A stretch of 64,000 nucleotides of DNA, taken from assembly GCF_034372165.1 (NCBI RefSeq), contig NZ_CP139698.1:1736001-1800000 (forward strand), read 5' to 3'. The notes beneath the pieces were generated by a model. That model saw nothing but the letters and a program-made list of their open reading frames with translations, was not told the origin of the DNA and ran no database searches. This document shows, in pieces, positions 45,792 through 56,449 of the stretch (positions within the stretch are counted from its first letter, which is position 1; the number at the start of each line of letters is the position of its first letter). The position numbers and the translations under genes were made by a program. The stretch comes from Christiangramia sp. OXR-203 (lineage in GTDB: Bacteria > Bacteroidota > Bacteroidia > Flavobacteriales > Flavobacteriaceae).

Positions 45792-47798
45792 ATGTCTTCT
45801 GTAGATACTTCACAAACCAAAATACTATACAATTCCAGCAATCATGATACCGAGACTCTTCAGGATCTGTATTCTGCGCTATTAAAACCCAGAATGATCG
45901 AAGAAAAGATGTTGATCTTGCTGCGTCAGGGTAAGATTAGTAAATGGTTTAGTGGAATTGGGCAGGAGGCGATTTCTGTAGGAGTAACCAAGGCTTTATC
46001 CAAGCACGAGTATATTTTACCTATGCATCGAAATCTCGGTGTTTTCACTACCCGTGAAATTCCATTGAAACGGTTGTTCGCTCAATGGCAGGGGAAAGCT
46101 TCTGGTTTTACAAAAGGTAGAGACCGGAGTTTTCATTTTGGAACACAGGAATTCAATATAGTAGGAATGATCTCTCATCTGGGACCACAGCTTGGAGTGG
46201 CAGATGGTATTGCACTTGCTAGCAAACTCAAAAAAGAAGGATCTGTAACTGCAGTTTTCACTGGTGAGGGTGGTACTAGTGAAGGTGATTTTCATGAAGC
46301 ACTGAATATTGCCTCGGTTTGGGATCTACCAGTTTTGTTCTGTATCGAGAATAATGGTTACGGACTCTCAACTCCGACTACGGAACAGTATAGATGTAAG
46401 GATCTTGCAGATCGCGGTGCTGGCTATGGGATGGAGGCGCATATCATAGATGGCAATAATATTCTCGAAGTTTATGAGAAAATCTCTGCAATAGCTGAAA
46501 GTATGCGGAAAGAACCCAGGCCGGTTCTTGTGGAATTCAAGACTTTTAGAATGAGAGGACATGAGGAAGCCAGTGGTACCAAATATGTTCCGAAGGAATT
46601 AATGGATGAGTGGCAGGCAAAGGATCCCGTGCTCAATTTTGAAAATTACCTTCTTGAAAATAATATTATATCACTAGATCATATTTCAGGAATAAAAGAA
46701 AAAATATTACAGGAGATCAACCAACATCTCGAAATCGCCAATTCTGAACCAATCGTTTCCGCAAATCTGGAAACTGAATTAAAGGATGTGTATGCAAATT
46801 ATGAATATGAAGAAGTTCAGCCTGCATCTACAACTTCAGAATTAAGATTTATAGATGCCATTGCTGCATCTGTTTCAGAATCTATGGAACGTCACCCCAA
46901 TCTTGTGCTTATGGGACAGGATATTGCAGATTATGGTGGTGTTTTTAAGATTACCGACGGTTTGCTTGCTAAATATGGTAAGGAAAGAATCCGCAATACG
47001 CCCATATGTGAATCGGCAATAGTTAGCACAGCCATGGGTCTATCCATAAAGGGTATGAAAGCTATGGTTGAAATGCAATTTAGTGATTTTGTAAGTTCGG
47101 GATTCAATCCAATCGTAAATTACCTTGCAAAAGTAAATTACCGATGGAACCAAAATGCCGATGTCGTCATCAGAATGCCATGCGGGGGTAGTGTAGGTGC
47201 AGGACCATTCCATAGCCAGACCAACGAAGCCTGGTTTACAAAAATCCCCGGGTTAAAAATCATCTATCCTGCTTTTCCTGCAGATGCTAAAGGTTTGTTG
47301 AATACAGCCTTTAATGATCCTAATCCCGTATTATATTTCGAGCACAAAGCGCTTTATCGAAGTATCAGGCAGGAAGTTCCAGAAGGGTATTACACTGCAG
47401 AATTCGGAAAAGCTTCCTTAATTAGAGAAGGTAGCGATGTTACTATAATCACTTACGGAGCAGGTGTTCATTGGGCTATGGAAATTCTGGATGAGTTGGA
47501 AGTGGATTCTGCAGACCTTCTGGACCTTCGAAGTTTACAACCACTTGACAAGGAAGCAATTTGTGAATCAGTCACAAAAACAGGAAAAGTGATCGTACTA
47601 ACAGAGGATTCACTAACGGGTAGTTTTGCTTCAGAAATTGCTGCCATGATCACTGAGAATTGTTTTGAAAGTCTTGATGCTCCAGTATATAGAGTGGGTT
47701 CTTTGGAAACACCAATACCATTCGCAAAGGAGCTGGAAAACCAGTATTTGCCAAAGGATCGCTTCAAATTAAAATTACAGGAATTATTGAATTATTAG
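45792..47798 (+). CDS. Fused alpha-beta E1 component of branched-chain 2-oxoacid dehydrogenase
   Basis: 668 residues, an E1-alpha/E1-beta fusion. The alpha half (~1-330) holds the thiamine-diphosphate motif GEGGTSEGDFHEALN...ENNGYGLS and HRNLGVFT. The beta half (~345-668) has MGQDIADYGGVFKIT, CESAIVSTAMG and the transketolase C-terminal part LDLRSLQPLD. The enzyme decarboxylates branched-chain 2-oxo acids (from Val, Leu, Ile) and passes the acyl group to lipoyl-E2, giving primers for iso-branched fatty acids common in flavobacteria. E2 and E3 are not in the window. It is divergent from the oxygenase gene. Confidence 0.92.
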   Translation: MSSVDTSQTKILYNSSNHDTETLQDLYSALLKPRMIEEKMLILLRQGKISKWFSGIGQEAISVGVTKALSKHEYILPMHRNLGVFTTREIPLKRLFAQWQGKASGFTKGRDRSFHFGTQEFNIVGMISHLGPQLGVADGIALASKLKKEGSVTAVFTGEGGTSEGDFHEALNIASVWDLPVLFCIENNGYGLSTPTTEQYRCKDLADRGAGYGMEAHIIDGNNILEVYEKISAIAESMRKEPRPVLVEFKTFRMRGHEEASGTKYVPKELMDEWQAKDPVLNFENYLLENNIISLDHISGIKEKILQEINQHLEIANSEPIVSANLETELKDVYANYEYEEVQPASTTSELRFIDAIAASVSESMERHPNLVLMGQDIADYGGVFKITDGLLAKYGKERIRNTPICESAIVSTAMGLSIKGMKAMVEMQFSDFVSSGFNPIVNYLAKVNYRWNQNADVVIRMPCGGSVGAGPFHSQTNEAWFTKIPGLKIIYPAFPADAKGLLNTAFNDPNPVLYFEHKALYRSIRQEVPEGYYTAEFGKASLIREGSDVTIITYGAGVHWAMEILDELEVDSADLLDLRSLQPLDKEAICESVTKTGKVIVLTEDSLTGSFASEIAAMITENCFESLDAPVYRVGSLETPIPFAKELENQYLPKDRFKLKLQELLNY

Positions 47799-49400: not shown

Positions 49401-49426
49401 ATCCCGGTTTATGCCGGGATTTTTTA
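49401..49426 (+). terminator. Intrinsic terminator after the OmpA gene
   Basis: ATCCCGG-TTTATG-CCGGGAT followed by T6. It separates the OmpA transcript from the polyketide operon that starts at 49450; the short spacer contains only an imperfect promoter-like TAAATTCA. Confidence 0.9.
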
Positions 49427-49449: not shown

Positions 49450-50574
49450 ATGAATTCAAGAGATGTTATTATACTGGGAGGAGGACTAGCAGGTCTTGTA
49501 GCAGGGATACATCTCATAAATGCTGGTGCTAATGTTTGCCTGATTGAAAAAGACTCATATCCAAGACATAGGGTATGTGGAGAATACTTGTCCAATGAAG
49601 TAAAATCGTATTTGGAATTTCTAGGCCTTGATTTACAGAGTATTCATATCCCAGAACTTGCAAGGATGCAATTTAGCACACAGAGAGGGCATGCACTTGA
49701 ATGCGAGCTAGATCTTGGAGGAATGGGTATTAGTAGGTATACTCTAGATCATCTTTTATTCCAAAGATTTTTAAAAGTAGGAGGTGAAATTATTCAGACA
49801 ACTGCTGAAAATTGTAAATTTCAGGAGAACATTTTTTCAGTTCATTGCAAGAACGGTAAAACTCTCGAAGCAAATTTTGTACTCGGGGCATATGGCAAGA
49901 GGTCCAGTCTTGACAAGATTCTTAAGCGATCCTTTATAAATAAAAGATCTGCATGGATGGGTGTTAAGGCCCATTACGATAACAAGGATTTTCCTGATGA
50001 TCTGGTAGCACTGCATAACTTTCGAGGAGGATATTGCGGACTGTCAAGAACCGATCTTGATACTGTGAATGTCTGTTATCTGGCGACTTATGAATCATTT
50101 CAGAAACATGGAAATATTAAAGCATTTGAGAACAAGGTTCTTAGCCGTAATCCATTTTTAGAGGATTTTTTTCAGAATTCAACCATGGTCTTCGAAAAAC
50201 CTTTGAGTATCGCCCAAATTTCATTTGAAAATAAGAAAATGTTCGAAAATCATATGATCATGATCGGGGACGCGGCAGGTCTAATTCATCCATTATCAGG
50301 TAACGGAATGGCGATGGCCATACGTAGCGCTAAGCTGGCTTCGGAAGCATTATTAGAGTTCAAGCTAGATCCTAACGACCGGGAAAGAATAGAATCAAAT
50401 TATACTCATTCCTGGAAAAATAATTTTAGAACAAGAATGAAAACTGGCAGGATACTTCAGAAGGTACTAATGCAGGAAAAGCTGAGTAATATTTCACAAA
50501 GTTTTGTACAGCATGTGCCCGGATTACTTCCGAAGATCATAAAACTAACCCACGGAAAAGAAATGCATGTCTAA
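49450..50574 (+). CDS. FAD-dependent oxidoreductase of the geranylgeranyl-reductase/PHBH type
   Basis: 374 residues, first gene of an eight-gene biosynthetic operon. The dinucleotide loop is LGGGLAGL (residues 9-16), followed by YPRHRVCGEYLS (~39-50), typical of the geranylgeranyl-reductase-like branch of the PHBH superfamily. The second FAD motif is IGDAAGLIHPLSGNGM (~271). Relatives hydroxylate aromatic rings or reduce isoprenoid or acyl double bonds. The halogenase signature WxWxIP is absent. Next to a type III PKS and a methyltransferase, it probably modifies the polyketide ring (hydroxylation to a quinol/quinone) or its side chain. It overlaps the methyltransferase gene by 8 nt. Confidence 0.88.
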   Translation: MNSRDVIILGGGLAGLVAGIHLINAGANVCLIEKDSYPRHRVCGEYLSNEVKSYLEFLGLDLQSIHIPELARMQFSTQRGHALECELDLGGMGISRYTLDHLLFQRFLKVGGEIIQTTAENCKFQENIFSVHCKNGKTLEANFVLGAYGKRSSLDKILKRSFINKRSAWMGVKAHYDNKDFPDDLVALHNFRGGYCGLSRTDLDTVNVCYLATYESFQKHGNIKAFENKVLSRNPFLEDFFQNSTMVFEKPLSIAQISFENKKMFENHMIMIGDAAGLIHPLSGNGMAMAIRSAKLASEALLEFKLDPNDRERIESNYTHSWKNNFRTRMKTGRILQKVLMQEKLSNISQSFVQHVPGLLPKIIKLTHGKEMHV

Positions 50575-51274
50575 AATAGATACAACAAAACGATCTCTCG
50601 AGCCTGAAATCATGGACGATTTTGACTTTAGAGGTGAAGAATTGAGAATAACTCTGGAGGATCTTGAAAAGGTCAATTCCTGGCTGGGCGGTAATCAAAT
50701 TAGTATAGATGGTCTGAAGAAACTGGATCTTGATAAAAATACAGAAATCTCAATCGTAGATGTAGGTTGTGGTAATGGAGCAATGTTACGTAAAATAGCA
50801 GATTGGGGCAGAAAGGAAAAGTTAAAACTAAAACTTACAGGAGTAGATGCCAATGCATATGCCATCGAGATTGCACAGAATCTATCCAAAGAATATCCTG
50901 AAATATACTTTGCAGCTCAGAATATCTTTAGCTCAGAATTTCGCAGCTCAAATTTTGATGTTGTGATGTGTACGCTAACATTACATCATTTCAAGGATTC
51001 CCAGATTCCGGAAATTTTGCATCAGTTCTACGATCAGTCTAAAATAGCAGTGATCATCAATGACCTGCAACGTTCAGCAATAGCTTACAGATTGTTTAAA
51101 ATGTTCTGCGCGGTATTTGTGAACAATGAAATTGCCAGGAAAGATGGTCTCATCTCAATTTTGCGAGGTTTTAAAGAACATGATATAAATAAATATATGA
51201 ATGCTATTAAAGTTGATACCTACTCGATCGAATGGAAATGGGCTTTCAGATATCTATGGATCATTAACAAATAA
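50567..51274 (+). CDS. Class I SAM-dependent methyltransferase (polyketide tailoring)
   Basis: 235 residues. Motif I VDVGCGNGAML (residues ~64-74), the acidic strand end GVDANAYAIE and motif IV DVVMCTLTLHHFKD (~131-144) show a UbiE/Methyltransf_11-type fold acting on a small molecule. The N-terminal ~30 residues are charged. It overlaps the preceding FAD gene by 8 nt and lies 4 nt before the type III PKS start, so the three are translated together. Methylation of a resorcinol, pyrone or quinol product is inferred from context. Confidence 0.88.
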   Translation: MSKIDTTKRSLEPEIMDDFDFRGEELRITLEDLEKVNSWLGGNQISIDGLKKLDLDKNTEISIVDVGCGNGAMLRKIADWGRKEKLKLKLTGVDANAYAIEIAQNLSKEYPEIYFAAQNIFSSEFRSSNFDVVMCTLTLHHFKDSQIPEILHQFYDQSKIAVIINDLQRSAIAYRLFKMFCAVFVNNEIARKDGLISILRGFKEHDINKYMNAIKVDTYSIEWKWAFRYLWIINK

Positions 51275-51278
51275 TAGA

Positions 51279-52331
51279 ATGAGTGTACATATAGTAAACG
51301 TTGAAAAGCAATTACCGGAATATTTTCGGGAAACCAAGGATATCATACCTCTGGTAGAAGATTGGCTTGGTGACCAGGATGACAGATTCCGTAGAAAAAT
51401 TGTTAAGATTTTTGAAGGTGCAGCCGTAGATAGGCGCTATTCGATCATGGATCCTGAGGAAGTCTTTACTGCAACTTCATTTGAGGATAAAAATAATATT
51501 TATGTAAGAGAGGTTAAGAAGCTGGGTAGCCAGGTTTTAAAAAAGTCGTTGGCTGCTGCAAACTGGGATGCTCAAAGTATCGATTTTATCATAACCGTAA
51601 GTTGTACCGGGATCATGATTCCTTCTCTGGATGCTTATTTGATCAATGAATTAAAATTGAAACAGGATGTTACTCGTTTGCCGGTTACCGAAATGGGATG
51701 TGCGGCAGGTATTTCTGGAATGATATACGCTCAAAATTTTTTGAAATCAAATCCAGGAAAACGTGCCGCTGTGATTGCTGTTGAAAGTCCTACGGCTACT
51801 TTTCAACTTTCAGATCTAAGTATGGCGAATATGGTAAGTGCCGCAATTTTCGGGGATGGGGCGGCTTGTGTATTACTTTCTTCTGAAGAAGGTCTTGATA
51901 GCCCGAGAATTATTGGAGAAGAAATGTACCATTTCTATGATGCGACACAAATGATGGGCTTTGATCTCAAGAATGAAGGTCTGCAAATGATTCTTGATCC
52001 GGCGGTTCCTGAAACTATATCCAAGCATTTTCCGAAAATCGTTCATCCGTTTCTCGAAAAACATGGATCTTCTATACAAAAAGTGGATCATTTAATATTT
52101 CATCCTGGTGGGAAAAAAATAGTGCAGACAGTTTCTGAACTTTTTGGTAACTTAGGTAAGAATATTGACGATACTCGCGAAGTGTTGAAATTATTCGGAA
52201 ATATGAGCAGCGCCACGGTACTTTACGTTCTGGAAAGATTTCTGGATAAAGATATTGCTAAGGGTGAACAGGGATTGATGTTAAGTTTTGGACCTGGTTT
52301 TTCTGCTCAACGAATTTTGATAGAATGGTAA
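51279..52331 (+). CDS. Type III polyketide synthase (chalcone/stilbene synthase family)
   Basis: 350 residues from ATG 51279; the frame extends upstream inside the methyltransferase gene but this start gives the family length. The catalytic triad is intact: Cys141 in TEMGCAAG, His275 in IFHPGG and Asn308 in LFGNMSSATV, with the closing SFGPGFSAQ. Such enzymes extend an acyl starter with malonyl-CoA and cyclise it to a resorcinol, pyrone or phloroglucinol. The product-gating residues cannot be judged by eye. Its stop overlaps the next start by 7 nt. The downstream KS/DH/ER/ACP set suggests an ACP-bound fatty acyl starter, as in the Azotobacter ars alkylresorcinol system. Confidence 0.95.
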   Translation: MSVHIVNVEKQLPEYFRETKDIIPLVEDWLGDQDDRFRRKIVKIFEGAAVDRRYSIMDPEEVFTATSFEDKNNIYVREVKKLGSQVLKKSLAAANWDAQSIDFIITVSCTGIMIPSLDAYLINELKLKQDVTRLPVTEMGCAAGISGMIYAQNFLKSNPGKRAAVIAVESPTATFQLSDLSMANMVSAAIFGDGAACVLLSSEEGLDSPRIIGEEMYHFYDATQMMGFDLKNEGLQMILDPAVPETISKHFPKIVHPFLEKHGSSIQKVDHLIFHPGGKKIVQTVSELFGNLGKNIDDTREVLKLFGNMSSATVLYVLERFLDKDIAKGEQGLMLSFGPGFSAQRILIEW

Positions 52332-53119
52332 AAGACTTCAGAAATACAGATTATTGGGCGGTAATACTTGGAGGTAGTAGCGGTCTTGGGTATGCGAGTG
52401 CAAAGAAGCTTGCAAACCACGGAATGAATATTATTATAATCCACCGCGACAGAAGATCTGAAATTGAAGATATAGAAGAAGCTTTTGAAAGTATACGTAA
52501 AACTGGTGTGGAATTTCGCAGTTTTAATACAGATGCAATTCAGAAGGAGAACCGGAATGAACTCGTTTTAAATATCAAGAAATCTCTTGGTAAGCATGGT
52601 AAGGTAAGAACCCTTTTACATAGTATCGCAAAGGGTAATTTAAAACCTATGCTAGGAGATGAACAAACTCTGAGTAATATCGACTTTCAGTTGACCATAG
52701 ATGCCATGGCATTAAGCCTGTATGACTGGACTCAGGAACTATATAGAAATGACCTTTTCGCGAAAGATGCCCGTGTGATCGCTTTTACCAGTGAAGGAAA
52801 TAAAAAGGCATGGAAAAATTATGCAGCAGTTTCAGCAGCAAAAGTAACTCTGGAATCCTTAACCAGAGGGATCGCTCTTGAGTTTGCTGAAAAAGGAATT
52901 CGCGCAAATTGTATTCAGGCGGGTATAACGGTTACTAGATCTTTCCAGATGATTCCGGGCAATCAAACTCTTAGGGAACATGCTTTGAAACACAATCCAT
53001 TCAAAAGATTAACAGTCCCGGATGATGTCGCAAACGTTGTCTATTTACTGAGTAAAGATGAAGCATCCTGGATTACCGGGAGTATCATCCCTGTTAATGG
53101 TGGTGAGCACTTAATGTAA
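52325..53119 (+). CDS. SDR-family enoyl-ACP reductase, FabL-like
   Basis: 264 residues. The Rossmann loop is GGSSGLG (16-22). The active-site spacing is Tyr166-x6-Lys173 (NYAAVSAAK), the enoyl-reductase pattern of FabI/FabL, not the Tyr-x3-Lys of ketoreductases; the following VTLESLTRGIALEF also resembles B. subtilis FabL. It should reduce the trans-2-enoyl-ACP intermediate during chain building. It overlaps the type III PKS gene by 7 nt. The Tyr found ten residues before the catalytic Tyr in FabI is not obvious here, so reductase activity is inferred from the overall pattern. Confidence 0.82.
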   Translation: MVKDFRNTDYWAVILGGSSGLGYASAKKLANHGMNIIIIHRDRRSEIEDIEEAFESIRKTGVEFRSFNTDAIQKENRNELVLNIKKSLGKHGKVRTLLHSIAKGNLKPMLGDEQTLSNIDFQLTIDAMALSLYDWTQELYRNDLFAKDARVIAFTSEGNKKAWKNYAAVSAAKVTLESLTRGIALEFAEKGIRANCIQAGITVTRSFQMIPGNQTLREHALKHNPFKRLTVPDDVANVVYLLSKDEASWITGSIIPVNGGEHLM

Positions 53120-53130
53120 ATTCGCAGTTC

Positions 53131-53577
53131 TTGAAAAGTATAGAAATAACCTCCAAACTACCTTATTCAGCACCTTTTCTATTCGTAGACGAAATCACGT
53201 CTGTCAGCGAGAATACTATTGAAGGTAATTACCTTTTCAATAAATCCCATGATTTTTATCGTGGCCATTTCAAGGTTAATCCTGTAACTCCGGGAGTGAT
53301 CCTGGCTGAATGTATGGCGCAAATTGGTGTGGTCTCCCTTGGTATCTACTTGTTAAGTAAGCAGAGTGAGGCTTCTGCAACCCCTCGCATCGCTATGACT
53401 TCTTCTAATGTGGAATTTATTAAACCCGTTTATCCTGGCGAAAAAGTATTCGTAAAGTCTGAAAAAAAATACTTTAGATTTAATAAATTAAAGTGCGTGG
53501 TGATCATGACTGATACTGAAGAAAACATTATATGCCGGGGTGAAATTTCGGGAATGATTTTAAAAGCTGAATCATGA
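53131..53577 (+). CDS. FabZ-like 3-hydroxyacyl-ACP dehydratase
   Basis: 148 residues from a TTG start 11 nt after the SDR stop codon; no ATG is available at the start. It is a single hot-dog domain: SAPFLFVDEI, then the catalytic GHFKVNPVTPG with His46 and Glu60 in LAECMAQ. FabZ-like enzymes dehydrate 3-hydroxyacyl-ACP. Its stop overlaps the ketosynthase ATG by 4 nt (ATGA). The dehydratase completes a KS-DH-ER set that lacks only a ketoreductase. Confidence 0.88.
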   Translation: MKSIEITSKLPYSAPFLFVDEITSVSENTIEGNYLFNKSHDFYRGHFKVNPVTPGVILAECMAQIGVVSLGIYLLSKQSEASATPRIAMTSSNVEFIKPVYPGEKVFVKSEKKYFRFNKLKCVVIMTDTEENIICRGEISGMILKAES

Positions 53578-54848
53578 GTAGAAGAGTAGTGATTACTGGA
53601 TTGGGTGTTGCCGCGCCTAATGCAATTGGAATTGATCAATTTGACCAGGCTTTGAGGAATGGCAATAGCGGAATCAAATTCTACCAGAATCTAAAAGATC
53701 TTAATTTCAGTTGCCAGATAGGAGGGAAGCCACCGGTTACTCAAGAGATGATAGACCAGTATTTTAATCCGCTTCAGCAAAAAGGCTTGAATAGCAGCGG
53801 ACTCATTTATGGAGTGATGGCTGGCGTAGATGCGTGGAAGGATGCCATGCTTCCAATTTCTTCGGAAGAGGATCCAGACTGGAATTCAGGGATCATTTTT
53901 GGCACTGGAATCCTTGGAGTCGACAAATTTAGACAAGCGATCCATCTGATTGATGCCGGGAAAACCAGAAGATTGGGAAGCACGAGTGTAATCCAGACGA
54001 TGGCTAGCGGTATTAGTGCTTACTTAGGAGGAATGCTAGGTTGCGGTAACCAGGTAACAACAAATTCTTCCGCATGTACTACAGGAAATGAAGCGATTAT
54101 CCTTGGATATGACCGGATAATTTCAGGGAAGGCTCAAAGAATGCTGGTTGGAAGTTGCGGTGATGATGGACCTTATGTTTGGGGAGGATTTGACGCGATG
54201 AGGATTCTTCCGGGGAAATACAATGATAATCCAGAAGAAGCTTCCAGACCTATGAGTGCAACTGCTTCTGGATTTGTGCCGGGAAGTGGAGCAGGAGCTC
54301 TGCTGCTTGAATCGCTGGAATCTGCTTTGCAAAGAGGAGCAAATATTTATGCGGAAGTACTTGGGGGAGCTATCAATAGTGGCGGTCAGAGAGCTGGTGG
54401 AAGTATGACCGCAGCAAATAATGAAGCTGTGCAAAGATGTATAAAGGATGCTATTAGTTTTGCTGGAATTCAGGCTGAAGATATAGACTATATAAATGGA
54501 CATCTCACAGCTACTACCAGAGATGCTACAGAAATCGAGAACTGGACTTCTGCACTCGGACTTTCAGGAGAAAAATTTCCGAAGATTAATTCCCTGAAAG
54601 GCATGACCGGACACTGTTTGAGTGCTTCTGGTTCAATTGAAAGTGTTGCTAGTATACTTCAGATTAAAAATCAATATGTATTCGGGAATATTAACTGTGA
54701 AGATGTTCATCCAGATATAATTGATTTAATCGATGGCTCCTGTATTCCGAAGAAAACATTAGATTTTGGTATTAATATCGCAGCTAAAGCCAGTTTTGGT
54801 TTTGGAGATGTAAATGCGGTCACTATCTTTAAACGGTATAAAAAATAG
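53574..54848 (+). CDS. 3-oxoacyl-ACP synthase (KAS I/II family)
   Basis: 424 residues, thiolase fold. The Cys-His-His triad is intact: Cys168 in SSACTTG, His310 in NGHLTATTRD and His347 in GMTGHCLSASG, at spacings like FabF (163/303/340). The HLTATTRD segment replaces the usual HGTxTxxND, so it is a divergent, specialised ketosynthase. It condenses acyl groups with malonyl-ACP and presumably works with the adjacent dedicated ACP. It lies 3 nt before that ACP gene. Confidence 0.93.
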   Translation: MSRRVVITGLGVAAPNAIGIDQFDQALRNGNSGIKFYQNLKDLNFSCQIGGKPPVTQEMIDQYFNPLQQKGLNSSGLIYGVMAGVDAWKDAMLPISSEEDPDWNSGIIFGTGILGVDKFRQAIHLIDAGKTRRLGSTSVIQTMASGISAYLGGMLGCGNQVTTNSSACTTGNEAIILGYDRIISGKAQRMLVGSCGDDGPYVWGGFDAMRILPGKYNDNPEEASRPMSATASGFVPGSGAGALLLESLESALQRGANIYAEVLGGAINSGGQRAGGSMTAANNEAVQRCIKDAISFAGIQAEDIDYINGHLTATTRDATEIENWTSALGLSGEKFPKINSLKGMTGHCLSASGSIESVASILQIKNQYVFGNINCEDVHPDIIDLIDGSCIPKKTLDFGINIAAKASFGFGDVNAVTIFKRYKK

Positions 54849-54851
54849 CTA

Positions 54852-55103
54852 ATGACCAATCAGGATATAATTTCTAAGATTAAAACAATTGTCACTCCAT
54901 ATACTCAGCGTACAGAAGGCTTATCTGAATTCGATGAAAGCACCAACTTTTTAAATGACCTTGAGATCAATTCTGCTAATCTGGTTGACGTAGTGCTGGA
55001 TGTTGAAGATGAATTTGATATTGAAATCGACAATGAATCCATGGACGGAATGATGACTGTAGGTGATGCCAGGGATATCATCGTCAAAAAACTGGATGAT
55101 TGA
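54852..55103 (+). CDS. Acyl carrier protein
   Basis: 83 residues, acidic and helical. The phosphopantetheine serine is Ser41 in the motif LEINSANLVDVV; the residue before it is Asn instead of the usual Asp of DSL, marking a divergent ACP. Helix II/III (VEDEFDIEI, TVGDARDII) is family-like. It is encoded between the ketosynthase and the phosphopantetheinyl transferase, which overlaps its stop, so it is the private carrier of the operon. Confidence 0.92.
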   Translation: MTNQDIISKIKTIVTPYTQRTEGLSEFDESTNFLNDLEINSANLVDVVLDVEDEFDIEIDNESMDGMMTVGDARDIIVKKLDD

Positions 55104-55651
55104 TCATTGGAAATGATATTATAGATCTTGAGATCGCACTGGATAAACCAAGGTTAAAGAATGATCGCTTTTTATCCAAAGTTTTTACAAAGAATGAAAT
55201 TACGCAAATTCATTTACACCCTAATCCGGAACTGGCAATCTGGAAAATGTGGTCGATGAAGGAAACAGCCTATAAAGCTCATCAAAGACTTTTTCAACTC
55301 CCTGCCAGACTTGATCCAATAAGTTATGAATGCGATCTTGATAAGCTATATGTTATAAAAGATAAGAATACATATATAATTAATTTGGAAAACGACGAGA
55401 ATCAAATTTACTCCTGGCTGGAGTTTAAAAATTTAGAACATATTAAACTCCCATACTCTCCAAATTATAAGTCTGATTTTTTAAAAGAGTTTTCCATTCG
55501 AACAGACCTAGATCTTCGAAACATTGAACTCTGTAAAAACAACTTGGGAATTCCAGAATTGTTTGTGAAGAACACCAATAACAGCTTACCTATTTCGATC
55601 ACCCACCATGGCAGGTTTGCTGCAATTTGCTTTCCGTTAATTAACTGCTAA
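55100..55651 (+). CDS. 4'-phosphopantetheinyl transferase (AcpS/Sfp superfamily)
   Basis: 183 residues from a TTG that overlaps the ACP stop (TTGA), so translation is coupled. Conserved parts are GNDIIDLE near the N-terminus (Mg-binding Asp) and WSMKETAYKAHQ (residues ~51-62), the W-S-x-K-E-x-x-x-K signature. It transfers phosphopantetheine from CoA to the ACP serine. The C-terminus SITHHGRFAAICFP fits the superfamily. As the last gene, it likely activates the divergent ACP of the cluster. Confidence 0.9.
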   Translation: MIIGNDIIDLEIALDKPRLKNDRFLSKVFTKNEITQIHLHPNPELAIWKMWSMKETAYKAHQRLFQLPARLDPISYECDLDKLYVIKDKNTYIINLENDENQIYSWLEFKNLEHIKLPYSPNYKSDFLKEFSIRTDLDLRNIELCKNNLGIPELFVKNTNNSLPISITHHGRFAAICFPLINC

Positions 55652-55732: not shown

Positions 55733-56449
55733 ATGAAGCAAGTAGATAAAATGGAGATCGTTCACAGTCAGTCAGCTGAGTTTATTGAACAAGGCGAACA
55801 GGGAAAATTTTTGAAAATGATCCCGGATACTTTTCTTATCAAAGGAGATGAAGTGGATGGTAAGTATAATCAAGGTTACGCAATTAGACATTTAAATAGA
55901 AGAGACATCCTATTAATTGACGTTGTTGAAAAATCATCAAAAGCTGCGGTAAAAAAATTCGTGGAAGAAGGTTACCAGATCAAAGGTATTTTGATCACCT
56001 GTGACGCTATACTTGAGACTGCCTATGCAGATTTGAAAACTATTTCTGAAGATGCTGGTGGTGCTGCTATTTATGCTCATCCAAGAAATAATATTAAGGA
56101 CGATTTTAAGACAAAAGATATCACAAAAAGAGATCCCGTGCTGGACAGTTTCTCTATCAATATTTTCGATCTTCCTGGTGCTAGTGGCGCTTCTGTAGTT
56201 GTTTATTCCGAAATTAATGACGGAATGCTATTTCCAGGAGAAGATGCTGTAGGATCTGATTATTCTTCTGATCTCACTACGTTCTCCAGACCTGAAAAAA
56301 CTAATGCAAATAACGATTACGGATTAGCTGAGAGCTGGGCTGCTTTCGACACAGAATTCAGCTTTTTATTTCCTCGAAAGGGAAAACCAGGTTTCAATTT
56401 AGAAGAAGGAAATCAAATTGATATTCTAAACACTCTTGGAAAGAGCTAG
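55733..56449 (+). CDS. Metallo-beta-lactamase-fold protein with lost metal ligands
   Basis: 238 residues, soluble, no signal peptide. The order of strands follows the MBL fold: YAIRHLNRRDILLIDVV, GILITCDAILETAYADL at the position of the THxHxDH metal motif (residues ~85-101), AAIYAHPRN, then LPGASGASVVVY where active enzymes have PGHTPGS (148-154), and MLFPGEDAVG where they have GD. The metal-binding His residues are therefore missing (T89-C90-D91-A92 in place of THxH). This reading is by eye. It would be a structural or ligand-binding pseudoenzyme. It starts 82 nt after the polyketide operon and may or may not belong to it. Confidence 0.6.
   Translation: MKQVDKMEIVHSQSAEFIEQGEQGKFLKMIPDTFLIKGDEVDGKYNQGYAIRHLNRRDILLIDVVEKSSKAAVKKFVEEGYQIKGILITCDAILETAYADLKTISEDAGGAAIYAHPRNNIKDDFKTKDITKRDPVLDSFSINIFDLPGASGASVVVYSEINDGMLFPGEDAVGSDYSSDLTTFSRPEKTNANNDYGLAESWAAFDTEFSFLFPRKGKPGFNLEEGNQIDILNTLGKS

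Follow-up and report, generated by a model that had tools for sequence, protein, structure and literature searches.

The window analysed here (64,000 nucleotides of Christiangramia sp. OXR-203, contig NZ_CP139698.1, positions 1,736,001 to 1,800,000) carries on its forward strand eight co-directional, abutting genes (window positions 49450-55651), which encode a flavoprotein, a methyltransferase, a type III polyketide synthase (PKS), a short-chain dehydrogenase/reductase (SDR), a FabZ-like dehydratase, a ketosynthase (KS), an acyl carrier protein (ACP) and a 4'-phosphopantetheinyl transferase (PPTase). This operon probably encodes a two-part phenolic-lipid system, in which an ACP-fed starter supply serves a type III PKS responsible, with its partner enzymes, for ring formation and tailoring.

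Co-inheritance and order of the two parts

A type III PKS match (E <= 1e-20) was found in 143 of 397 Flavobacteriaceae genomes, and in 142 of them it belongs to one clade with the window PKS (56-100% identity), the remaining match (genome G072) being 31% identical and outside the clade. The flavoprotein (E <= 1e-60) occurs in exactly the same 142 genomes, while for the KS (E <= 1e-85) the search gave 140 of the 142 and not one of the 255 Flavobacteriaceae genomes without the clade PKS. One of the two misses (G293) is due to a KS truncated at a contig end (locus L177), which brings the total to 141 of 142 (Fisher test against 0 of 255, p = 2e-109, with kinship between genomes ignored). Additionally, the set is split in two in G190, in G144 and G329 (of one genus) and in G276, and the break always falls between SDR and FabZ, leaving flavoprotein, methyltransferase, PKS and SDR at one locus and FabZ, KS and ACP (joined by the PPTase in G276) at the other. 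The two halves lie ~355 kb apart on one contig in G190 and on different contigs in G276. Since the halves are unlinked and yet both kept, a shared pathway is favoured over hitch-hiking, and no other finding speaks as strongly as these split loci for the KS/FabZ/ACP part serving the PKS. The co-occurrence of KS and PKS, unlinked cases included, also favours a starter delivered by the ACP, so that two proposals of an earlier note on this DNA are strengthened: a dedicated chain-building partner for the PKS, and a logic like that of the Azotobacter ars system carried out by discrete proteins. No KS, FabZ or ACP match was found around the type III PKS of 28 other Bacteroidota loci (tblastn, E <= 1e-4, ~7 kb on each side, less at contig ends). 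A further candidate for a split genome, G066, was discarded, its contig break lying inside FabZ.

The earlier note had also suggested comparing gene order across relatives. For this comparison, the best 80 of 254 confirmed PKS relatives, all at least 70% identical (Flavobacteriaceae, Pedobacter and Kaistella), were joined by four further loci (L139, L140, L147 and L148), and profile searches were made up to 5.5 kb from the PKS; 77 of these 84 loci have at least 2 kb of upstream and at least 5 kb of downstream sequence. The order flavoprotein-methyltransferase-PKS-(SDR)-FabZ-KS is identical, and on a single strand, in all 77, which are mostly the nearest relatives (split or interrupted sets occur in other genomes). 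The gene order is fixed far beyond chance. Within the same search distance the ACP is present at 75 of the 77 loci; at L037 it lies farther away, and at L044 the profile search around the PKS found none. The PPTase was found at 53 loci and the SDR at 45, with five and six changes, respectively, by parsimony on a quick PKS tree. Christiangramia and Salegentibacter are among the carriers with an SDR, Pedobacter and most Flavobacterium among those without. The catalytic residues are invariant in the aligned relatives, both for the PKS (Cys/His/Asn, 84/84) and KS (Cys/His/His, 81/81), whose triads had been numbered correctly before, and for FabZ (His/Glu, 84/84), the SDR (S156/Y166/K173, 48/48) and the ACP (Ser, 79/79). 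The flanking genes vary by lineage, and those read appear housekeeping or unrelated; several candidates for further operon members (acetyl-CoA synthetase, aldehyde dehydrogenase, TerC-like, transaldolase and others, named by eye) were rejected on the grounds that the neighbours differ between lineages. No acyltransferase, ligase or thioesterase was seen as a constant member among the loci read. Two local insertions were observed: an 887-aa open reading frame (ORF) separating the PKS from the SDR in an uncultured Aquimarina (L037, 9421-12084), and 1.6-2.5 kb of extra DNA between FabZ and KS in genus g11 (L182-L184).

The SDR, previously counted as a FabL-like reductase of the chain-building set, does not hold that place. 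It is missing from 32 of the 77 loci, and none of the 21 tested genomes with an SDR-less operon has an SDR match genome-wide at E <= 1e-30, the same search giving a match at 61-63% identity in three positive-control genomes; the SDR is dispensable, having been lost and not relocated. It accompanies the PKS half in each of the four split genomes, and likewise in G138. Among solved chains the enoyl reductase 3oic comes closest to it, but its score against the NCBIfam FabL model (136.5 bits) is far below the cut-off of 328. The conserved set shows no ketoreductase gene, so the supply part, consisting of KS, dehydratase and ACP, has to rely on the cell for ketoreduction at least. Of the "private fatty-acid module" first proposed, the dedicated ACP-based supply gains support, while the completeness of the module, for want of a ketoreductase and with a dispensable SDR, does not.

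With the operon included, family searches find two PPTases and three ACPs in the genome, besides eight matches to KS domains and three of the FabA/FabZ type. The operon KS, FabZ and ACP are only 32-34% identical to their nearest paralogues over most of their length, which makes the set a diverged, dedicated copy (over 42 residues, FabZ also shares 43% identity with a match belonging to the aryl-polyene-like cluster described below).

The polyketide synthase lineage and its tailoring partners

The PKS belongs to the type III enzymes (chalcone synthase superfamily), as judged from its N- and C-terminal Chal_sti_synt domains and its Cys-His-Asn triad, and it is the single type III PKS match (PF02797) of the 3.395-Mb one-contig genome, 93% identical to the PKS of Christiangramia portivictoriae. 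In a wider sample, 174 of 395 Bacteroidota genomes have a type III PKS match, 33 of which are of the clade (at least 63% identity; 30 from the same family, two from family f3 and one from f10), and the next matches among those listed are at most 36% identical. Type III PKS matches on plasmids (226 of 72,556 records) are all below 60% identity, the best 60 of the 226 lying at 28-34%. By sequence identity, the PKS is a private Bacteroidota clade, at least 56% identical within and at most 36% to the other matches listed. The clade PKS of one genome (G150:C1:841126-842162) is matched in two fragments, owing either to a sequencing error or to decay of the gene.

A 60-row tree recovers the clade as a single group (support 100/100) on a long stem of 1.3 changes per site, and in a 49-row tree, to which PKS18 and an algal PKS were added, it is sister to a group of PKS11, CylI and Bps/Bcs-like enzymes (94/84). 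According to a published tree, the Bacillus, PKS11 and CylI kinds use long aliphatic starters (PMC8086630). In the approximately unbiased (AU) test, grouping with the PKSs of other Bacteroidota and Deinococcus that adjoin a methyltransferase and a flavoprotein (trio PKSs) is rejected (p 3e-8), and grouping with CylI alone is disfavoured though not rejected (p 0.07). A placement among families with non-fatty starters, which the earlier note had named as the outcome contrary to its reading, is not what the best tree gives, the clade falling on the mostly fatty-starter side; this agreement is partial, as grouping with tetrahydroxynaphthalene (THN) synthases is not rejected by the same test (p 0.447).

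The tailoring genes point elsewhere than the PKS. In four other Bacteroidota genomes with a PKS trio (G571, G536, G464 and G456), the genome-wide best matches of the flavoprotein (38-43%) and of the methyltransferase (29-37%), full-length relatives of both, adjoin the type III PKS, the other flavoprotein matches being at 25-30%, with exceptions in G464 (38% for a second match and 42% for a stretch of 55 residues, the PKS-side copy holding one stop codon). Of the 28 other Bacteroidota loci mentioned above, four have both a methyltransferase and a flavin adenine dinucleotide (FAD) enzyme, and two more have the methyltransferase alone. Judged from these sequence relationships the set looks chimeric: its tailoring genes are hierridin-like, its PKS comes from another lineage, and the supply part is an addition. 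Streptomyces srs operons carry a flavoprotein and an isoprenylcysteine-type methyltransferase; the likeness to them suggested earlier is not borne out, given that the window methyltransferase matches just class I S-adenosylmethionine (SAM) families and that hierridin-like trios are nearer for both flavoprotein and methyltransferase.

Structure models were obtained for both tailoring enzymes. The flavoprotein model (mean predicted local distance difference test, pLDDT, 87.8) has flavin halogenases and 3-hydroxybenzoate 6-hydroxylase as its nearest folds. Flavin-dependent halogenases share the motif W-x-W-x-I-P, which is absent from the 374-aa flavoprotein; a halogenase, with which the fold agrees, was rejected for this reason, and hydroxylation is the likelier predicted activity. 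The methyltransferase scores 144 bits against NF004851 (below its cut-off of 243), and the folds closest to its model (mean pLDDT 93.5) mix C-, O- and N-methyltransferases.

Proposed pathway and competing explanations

The gene families, the intact residues, the gene order and the co-inheritance are observations; from them we infer the direction of transfer, the starter, the ring type and every reaction of the following scheme. In its first part, the starter supply (core KS, FabZ-like dehydratase and ACP; PPTase optional), the PPTase would convert the ACP to holo-ACP and the KS would extend, on this private ACP, an acyl chain drawn from cellular fatty-acid synthesis, a housekeeping ketoreductase and the FabZ-like enzyme then giving an enoyl- or acyl-ACP. 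In the second part, ring formation and tailoring (core type III PKS, flavoprotein and methyltransferase; SDR optional), the PKS would accept the chain from the ACP, add malonyl units and cyclise the product, most likely to an alkyl- or alkenyl-resorcinol, whose ring would be hydroxylated by the flavoprotein and methylated by the methyltransferase; the SDR, where kept, probably reduces a double bond or carbonyl beside the ring or on the incoming chain. There are precedents for such a handover: ArsB and ArsC receive acyl chains from the ACP of ArsA (PMC6274091), CylI accepts a chain made on an ACP, and an acyl-ACP is named as the substrate of HidC (PMC8086630). Expressed in a foreign host, Planctomycetota trio PKSs yield pentadecyl- and heptadecylresorcinols, while one methyltransferase/oxidoreductase pair of that phylum adds a methyl group, probably to carbon (PMC10896814).

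A bolder form of this proposal, which we advance tentatively and with appreciable doubt, would make the clade the first family of type III PKSs to be supplied by discrete enzymes like those of type II fatty-acid synthase (FAS), working on a private ACP. KS and FabZ without reductases would then yield an alpha,beta-unsaturated acyl-ACP, SDR-less lineages would make 1-alkenyl and SDR-bearing ones saturated phenolic lipids, and the product would be a methylated, oxidised quinone-like or antioxidant membrane lipid present in a third of Flavobacteriaceae.

Several points weigh against an ACP-fed phenolic-lipid system. The kinship between genomes inflates the PKS/KS co-occurrence statistic; in the draft genome G138 the flavoprotein, methyltransferase, PKS and SDR are present and the KS was not found; and G190 and G144 have a similar gene directly behind the SDR, so that the splits in three genera, at least two events, may be only two. 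The supply part alone cannot complete a fatty-acid cycle, having no ketoreductase and, in the 32 loci mentioned, no SDR. The tailoring steps are guesses, the role of the Planctomycetota oxidoreductase being left open and the methyl group there lying only probably on carbon (PMC10896814). In the literature searched, which leaves out most subscription papers, no description of this cluster was found and, in agreement with the earlier note, no assigned product. The pocket of the PKS does not allow starter or cyclisation to be read, because Pro171 and Phe228, present in 84/84 clade members, have no counterpart in the 37 other rows compared (0/37). Phe228 lies 47 residues before the catalytic His, at what we take to be the place of chalcone synthase (CHS) Gly256; an aromatic residue there is common (Trp in 18/19 other Bacteroidota rows) and not diagnostic. 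Pro171 stands at the position of PKS18 Cys205 (CHS Thr194, PMC6274091). Three further points concern the starter: Cys109 occupies the place of Cys106 of THN synthase, though it is also found in trio PKSs; the grouping with THN synthases is not rejected by the AU test, although the best tree places the clade elsewhere; and the sister group includes rhizobial enzymes, one of this kind, from Rhizobium etli, being reported to produce a heptaketide pyrone from malonyl units only (PMC6274091).

The closest competitor to a resorcinol product differs in the ring closure, the same ACP-fed PKS lactonising its chain and the flavoprotein and methyltransferase decorating an alkylpyrone. The best-scoring solved relative of the PKS is PKS11, named as an alpha-pyrone synthase, and pyrones are the products of the Bacillus members of the sister group (PMC8086630). 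As for the ArsB Trp281/ArsC Gly284 rule, the ArsC structures named in PMC6274091 (3VS8 and 3VS9) did not appear in the listed 60 best matches. The flavoprotein and methyltransferase, however, are closest to the pair beside trio PKSs, and those of Planctomycetota make alkylresorcinols, as noted, so we regard a pyrone as a possible but somewhat unlikely outcome.

Still less likely, in our judgement, is a malonyl-primed PKS making a small phenol (phloroglucinol-, THN- or dihydroxyphenylacetate-like), to which the acyl group built by KS, FabZ and ACP would be joined later. Such a later acylation would give the same co-inheritance, and the three points just listed on the starter (Cys109, the THN synthase grouping and the R. 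etli enzyme) speak in its favour. Nevertheless, the best tree joins the clade to mostly fatty-starter enzymes, and an acyltransferase, ligase or thioesterase is not a constant member of the set. The score of the PKS against the DpgA model NF042429 (174 bits, cut-off 425) lies within the range of eight other type III PKSs (142-202 bits), and DpgA was therefore rejected as its function.

A reversed order would have the PKS make an aromatic acyl starter, to be carried by the ACP and lengthened by KS and FabZ on the pattern of aryl polyenes or DpgA-type hybrids. It agrees with an aryl-polyene logic that includes KS, dehydratase and ACP without an enoyl reductase, and with an aryl-polyene/flexirubin-like cluster in the same genome, but is quite improbable, because the set is without an activating ligase or ketoreductase and the operon KS resembles a FabF-like paralogue (32.5%) more than it does the aryl-polyene-like KSs (26-29%).

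Known systems, locus layout and surroundings

The ACP-fed phenolic-lipid system we favour shares parts with several known ones. In hidABC of cyanobacteria, and in related Planctomycetota operons (PMC10896814), a methyltransferase, a flavin oxidoreductase and a type III PKS also form one operon, but the order is methyltransferase-oxidoreductase-PKS instead of flavoprotein-methyltransferase-PKS, and its three genes, as described there, come without KS, FabZ, ACP and PPTase genes, all four of which are present in the window. From the HidC lineage the window PKS is set apart by proxy, through five Bacteroidota/Deinococcus trio PKSs (the AU rejection given above). Azotobacter ars likewise gives a type III PKS its own fatty-chain supply, handed over by an acyl carrier protein (PMC6274091); there, however, the supply is the type I FAS ArsA/ArsD, in contrast to the separate small KS, dehydratase and ACP of the window, and there are two PKSs against one in the window genome, which has the flavoprotein and methyltransferase in addition. 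In the cylindrocyclophane (cyl) cluster, a free-standing ACP and chain-extending enzymes likewise feed the ring-forming type III PKS CylI (PMC8086630), but type I PKSs, a halogenase and a dimerising enzyme distinguish it from the window set. Streptomyces srs, Bacillus bps and rhizobial bcs have a type III PKS and a methyltransferase in common with the window, whereas the isoprenylcysteine-type methyltransferase seen in four bps/bcs-like plasmid loci has no counterpart in the window set. In the literature searched, "T3PKS" clusters have been counted in Flavobacteriaceae (PMC7440613), an Aequorivita gene was reported as a 69% match to a Zobellia type III PKS (PMC6139392), and "a PKS" of Maribacter was suggested for thallusin without being tied to this gene set (PMC8072126).

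The coordinates are collected in the table. All eight genes, their families (by Pfam) and their tight packing were found as first described. The junctions are an 8-nt overlap (flavoprotein/methyltransferase), a 4-nt gap (methyltransferase/PKS), a 7-nt overlap (PKS/SDR), an 11-nt gap (SDR/FabZ), a 4-nt overlap (FabZ/KS), a 3-nt gap (KS/ACP) and a 4-nt overlap (ACP/PPTase). The adopted start of the PKS is 51279 (the mechanical ORF begins at 51201), and TTG start codons were assumed for FabZ and the PPTase. The inverted repeat ahead of the operon, read in the sequence, was not among the sites returned by a consensus scan for operon boundaries, in which promoter- and terminator-like sites were no commoner than in shuffled sequence.

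Table. Features of the operon and its upstream boundary (window coordinates)
Feature	Position	Strand	Size	Status	Basis and residues
Terminator-like inverted repeat ATCCCGG-TTTATG-CCGGGAT-TTTTT	49401..49425	+			between OmpA-like gene and operon
FAD-dependent monooxygenase/GGR-like flavoprotein	49450..50574	+	374 aa	core	PF01494 (FAD_binding_3) 3.7e-13
Class I SAM methyltransferase, PRK06202-like	50567..51274	+	235 aa	core	PF13649 (Methyltransf_25) 2.3e-15
Type III PKS	51279..52331	+	350 aa	core	Chal_sti_synt_N/C: PF00195 1.4e-20, PF02797 6e-19; C141-H275-N308
SDR	52325..53119	+	264 aa	optional	PF13561 (adh_short_C2) 5.6e-43; Y-x6-K spacing of enoyl-ACP reductases
FabZ-like dehydratase	53131..53577	+	148 aa	core	PF07977 (FabA-like) 1.9e-14; H46/E60
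FabF/FabB-type ketosynthase	53574..54848	+	424 aa	core	PF00109/PF02801 (ketoacyl-synt N/C); C168-H310-H347
Acyl carrier protein	54852..55103	+	83 aa	core	PF00550 (PP-binding) 4.9e-05; Ser41
4'-Phosphopantetheinyl transferase	55100..55651	+	183 aa	optional	PF01648 (ACPS) 1.2e-10

Upstream of the operon (45792-47798) lies a fused gene resembling, by eye, the E1 component of branched-chain 2-oxoacid dehydrogenase. Such a gene is found near the operon on the same strand in 36 of the 84 loci, ~60 nt or less from the flavoprotein gene in Croceitalea (L027); it perhaps supplies starters, or perhaps is just an inherited neighbourhood. Downstream, a gene for 238 aa (55733-56449) begins 81 nt past the last operon stop, has no Pfam or NCBIfam match and is kept in Christiangramia, Salegentibacter and Gillisia loci. 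The aryl-polyene/flexirubin-like cluster (L169 578-14830, G000:C1:1722577-1736829) overlaps the first 829 bases of the window and ends ~49 kb upstream of the operon. By eye it comprises aromatic ammonia-lyase-like, ketoreductase, acyltransferase, dehydratase, LolA-like, glycosyltransferase and MMPL-like exporter genes, together with KSs and an ACP, and family searches give KS, ACP and FabA-type matches in it.

With these results, a common but unassigned flavobacterial "T3PKS" cluster gains a defined core and a way of testing which genes form one set, and the split loci provide a natural experiment that argues for a handover linking a type III PKS with a dissociated module of the fatty-acid type. 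If the proposed system is true, a widespread undiscovered phenolic lipid would exist in marine and soil Bacteroidota, and type III PKSs would have a new way of being primed.

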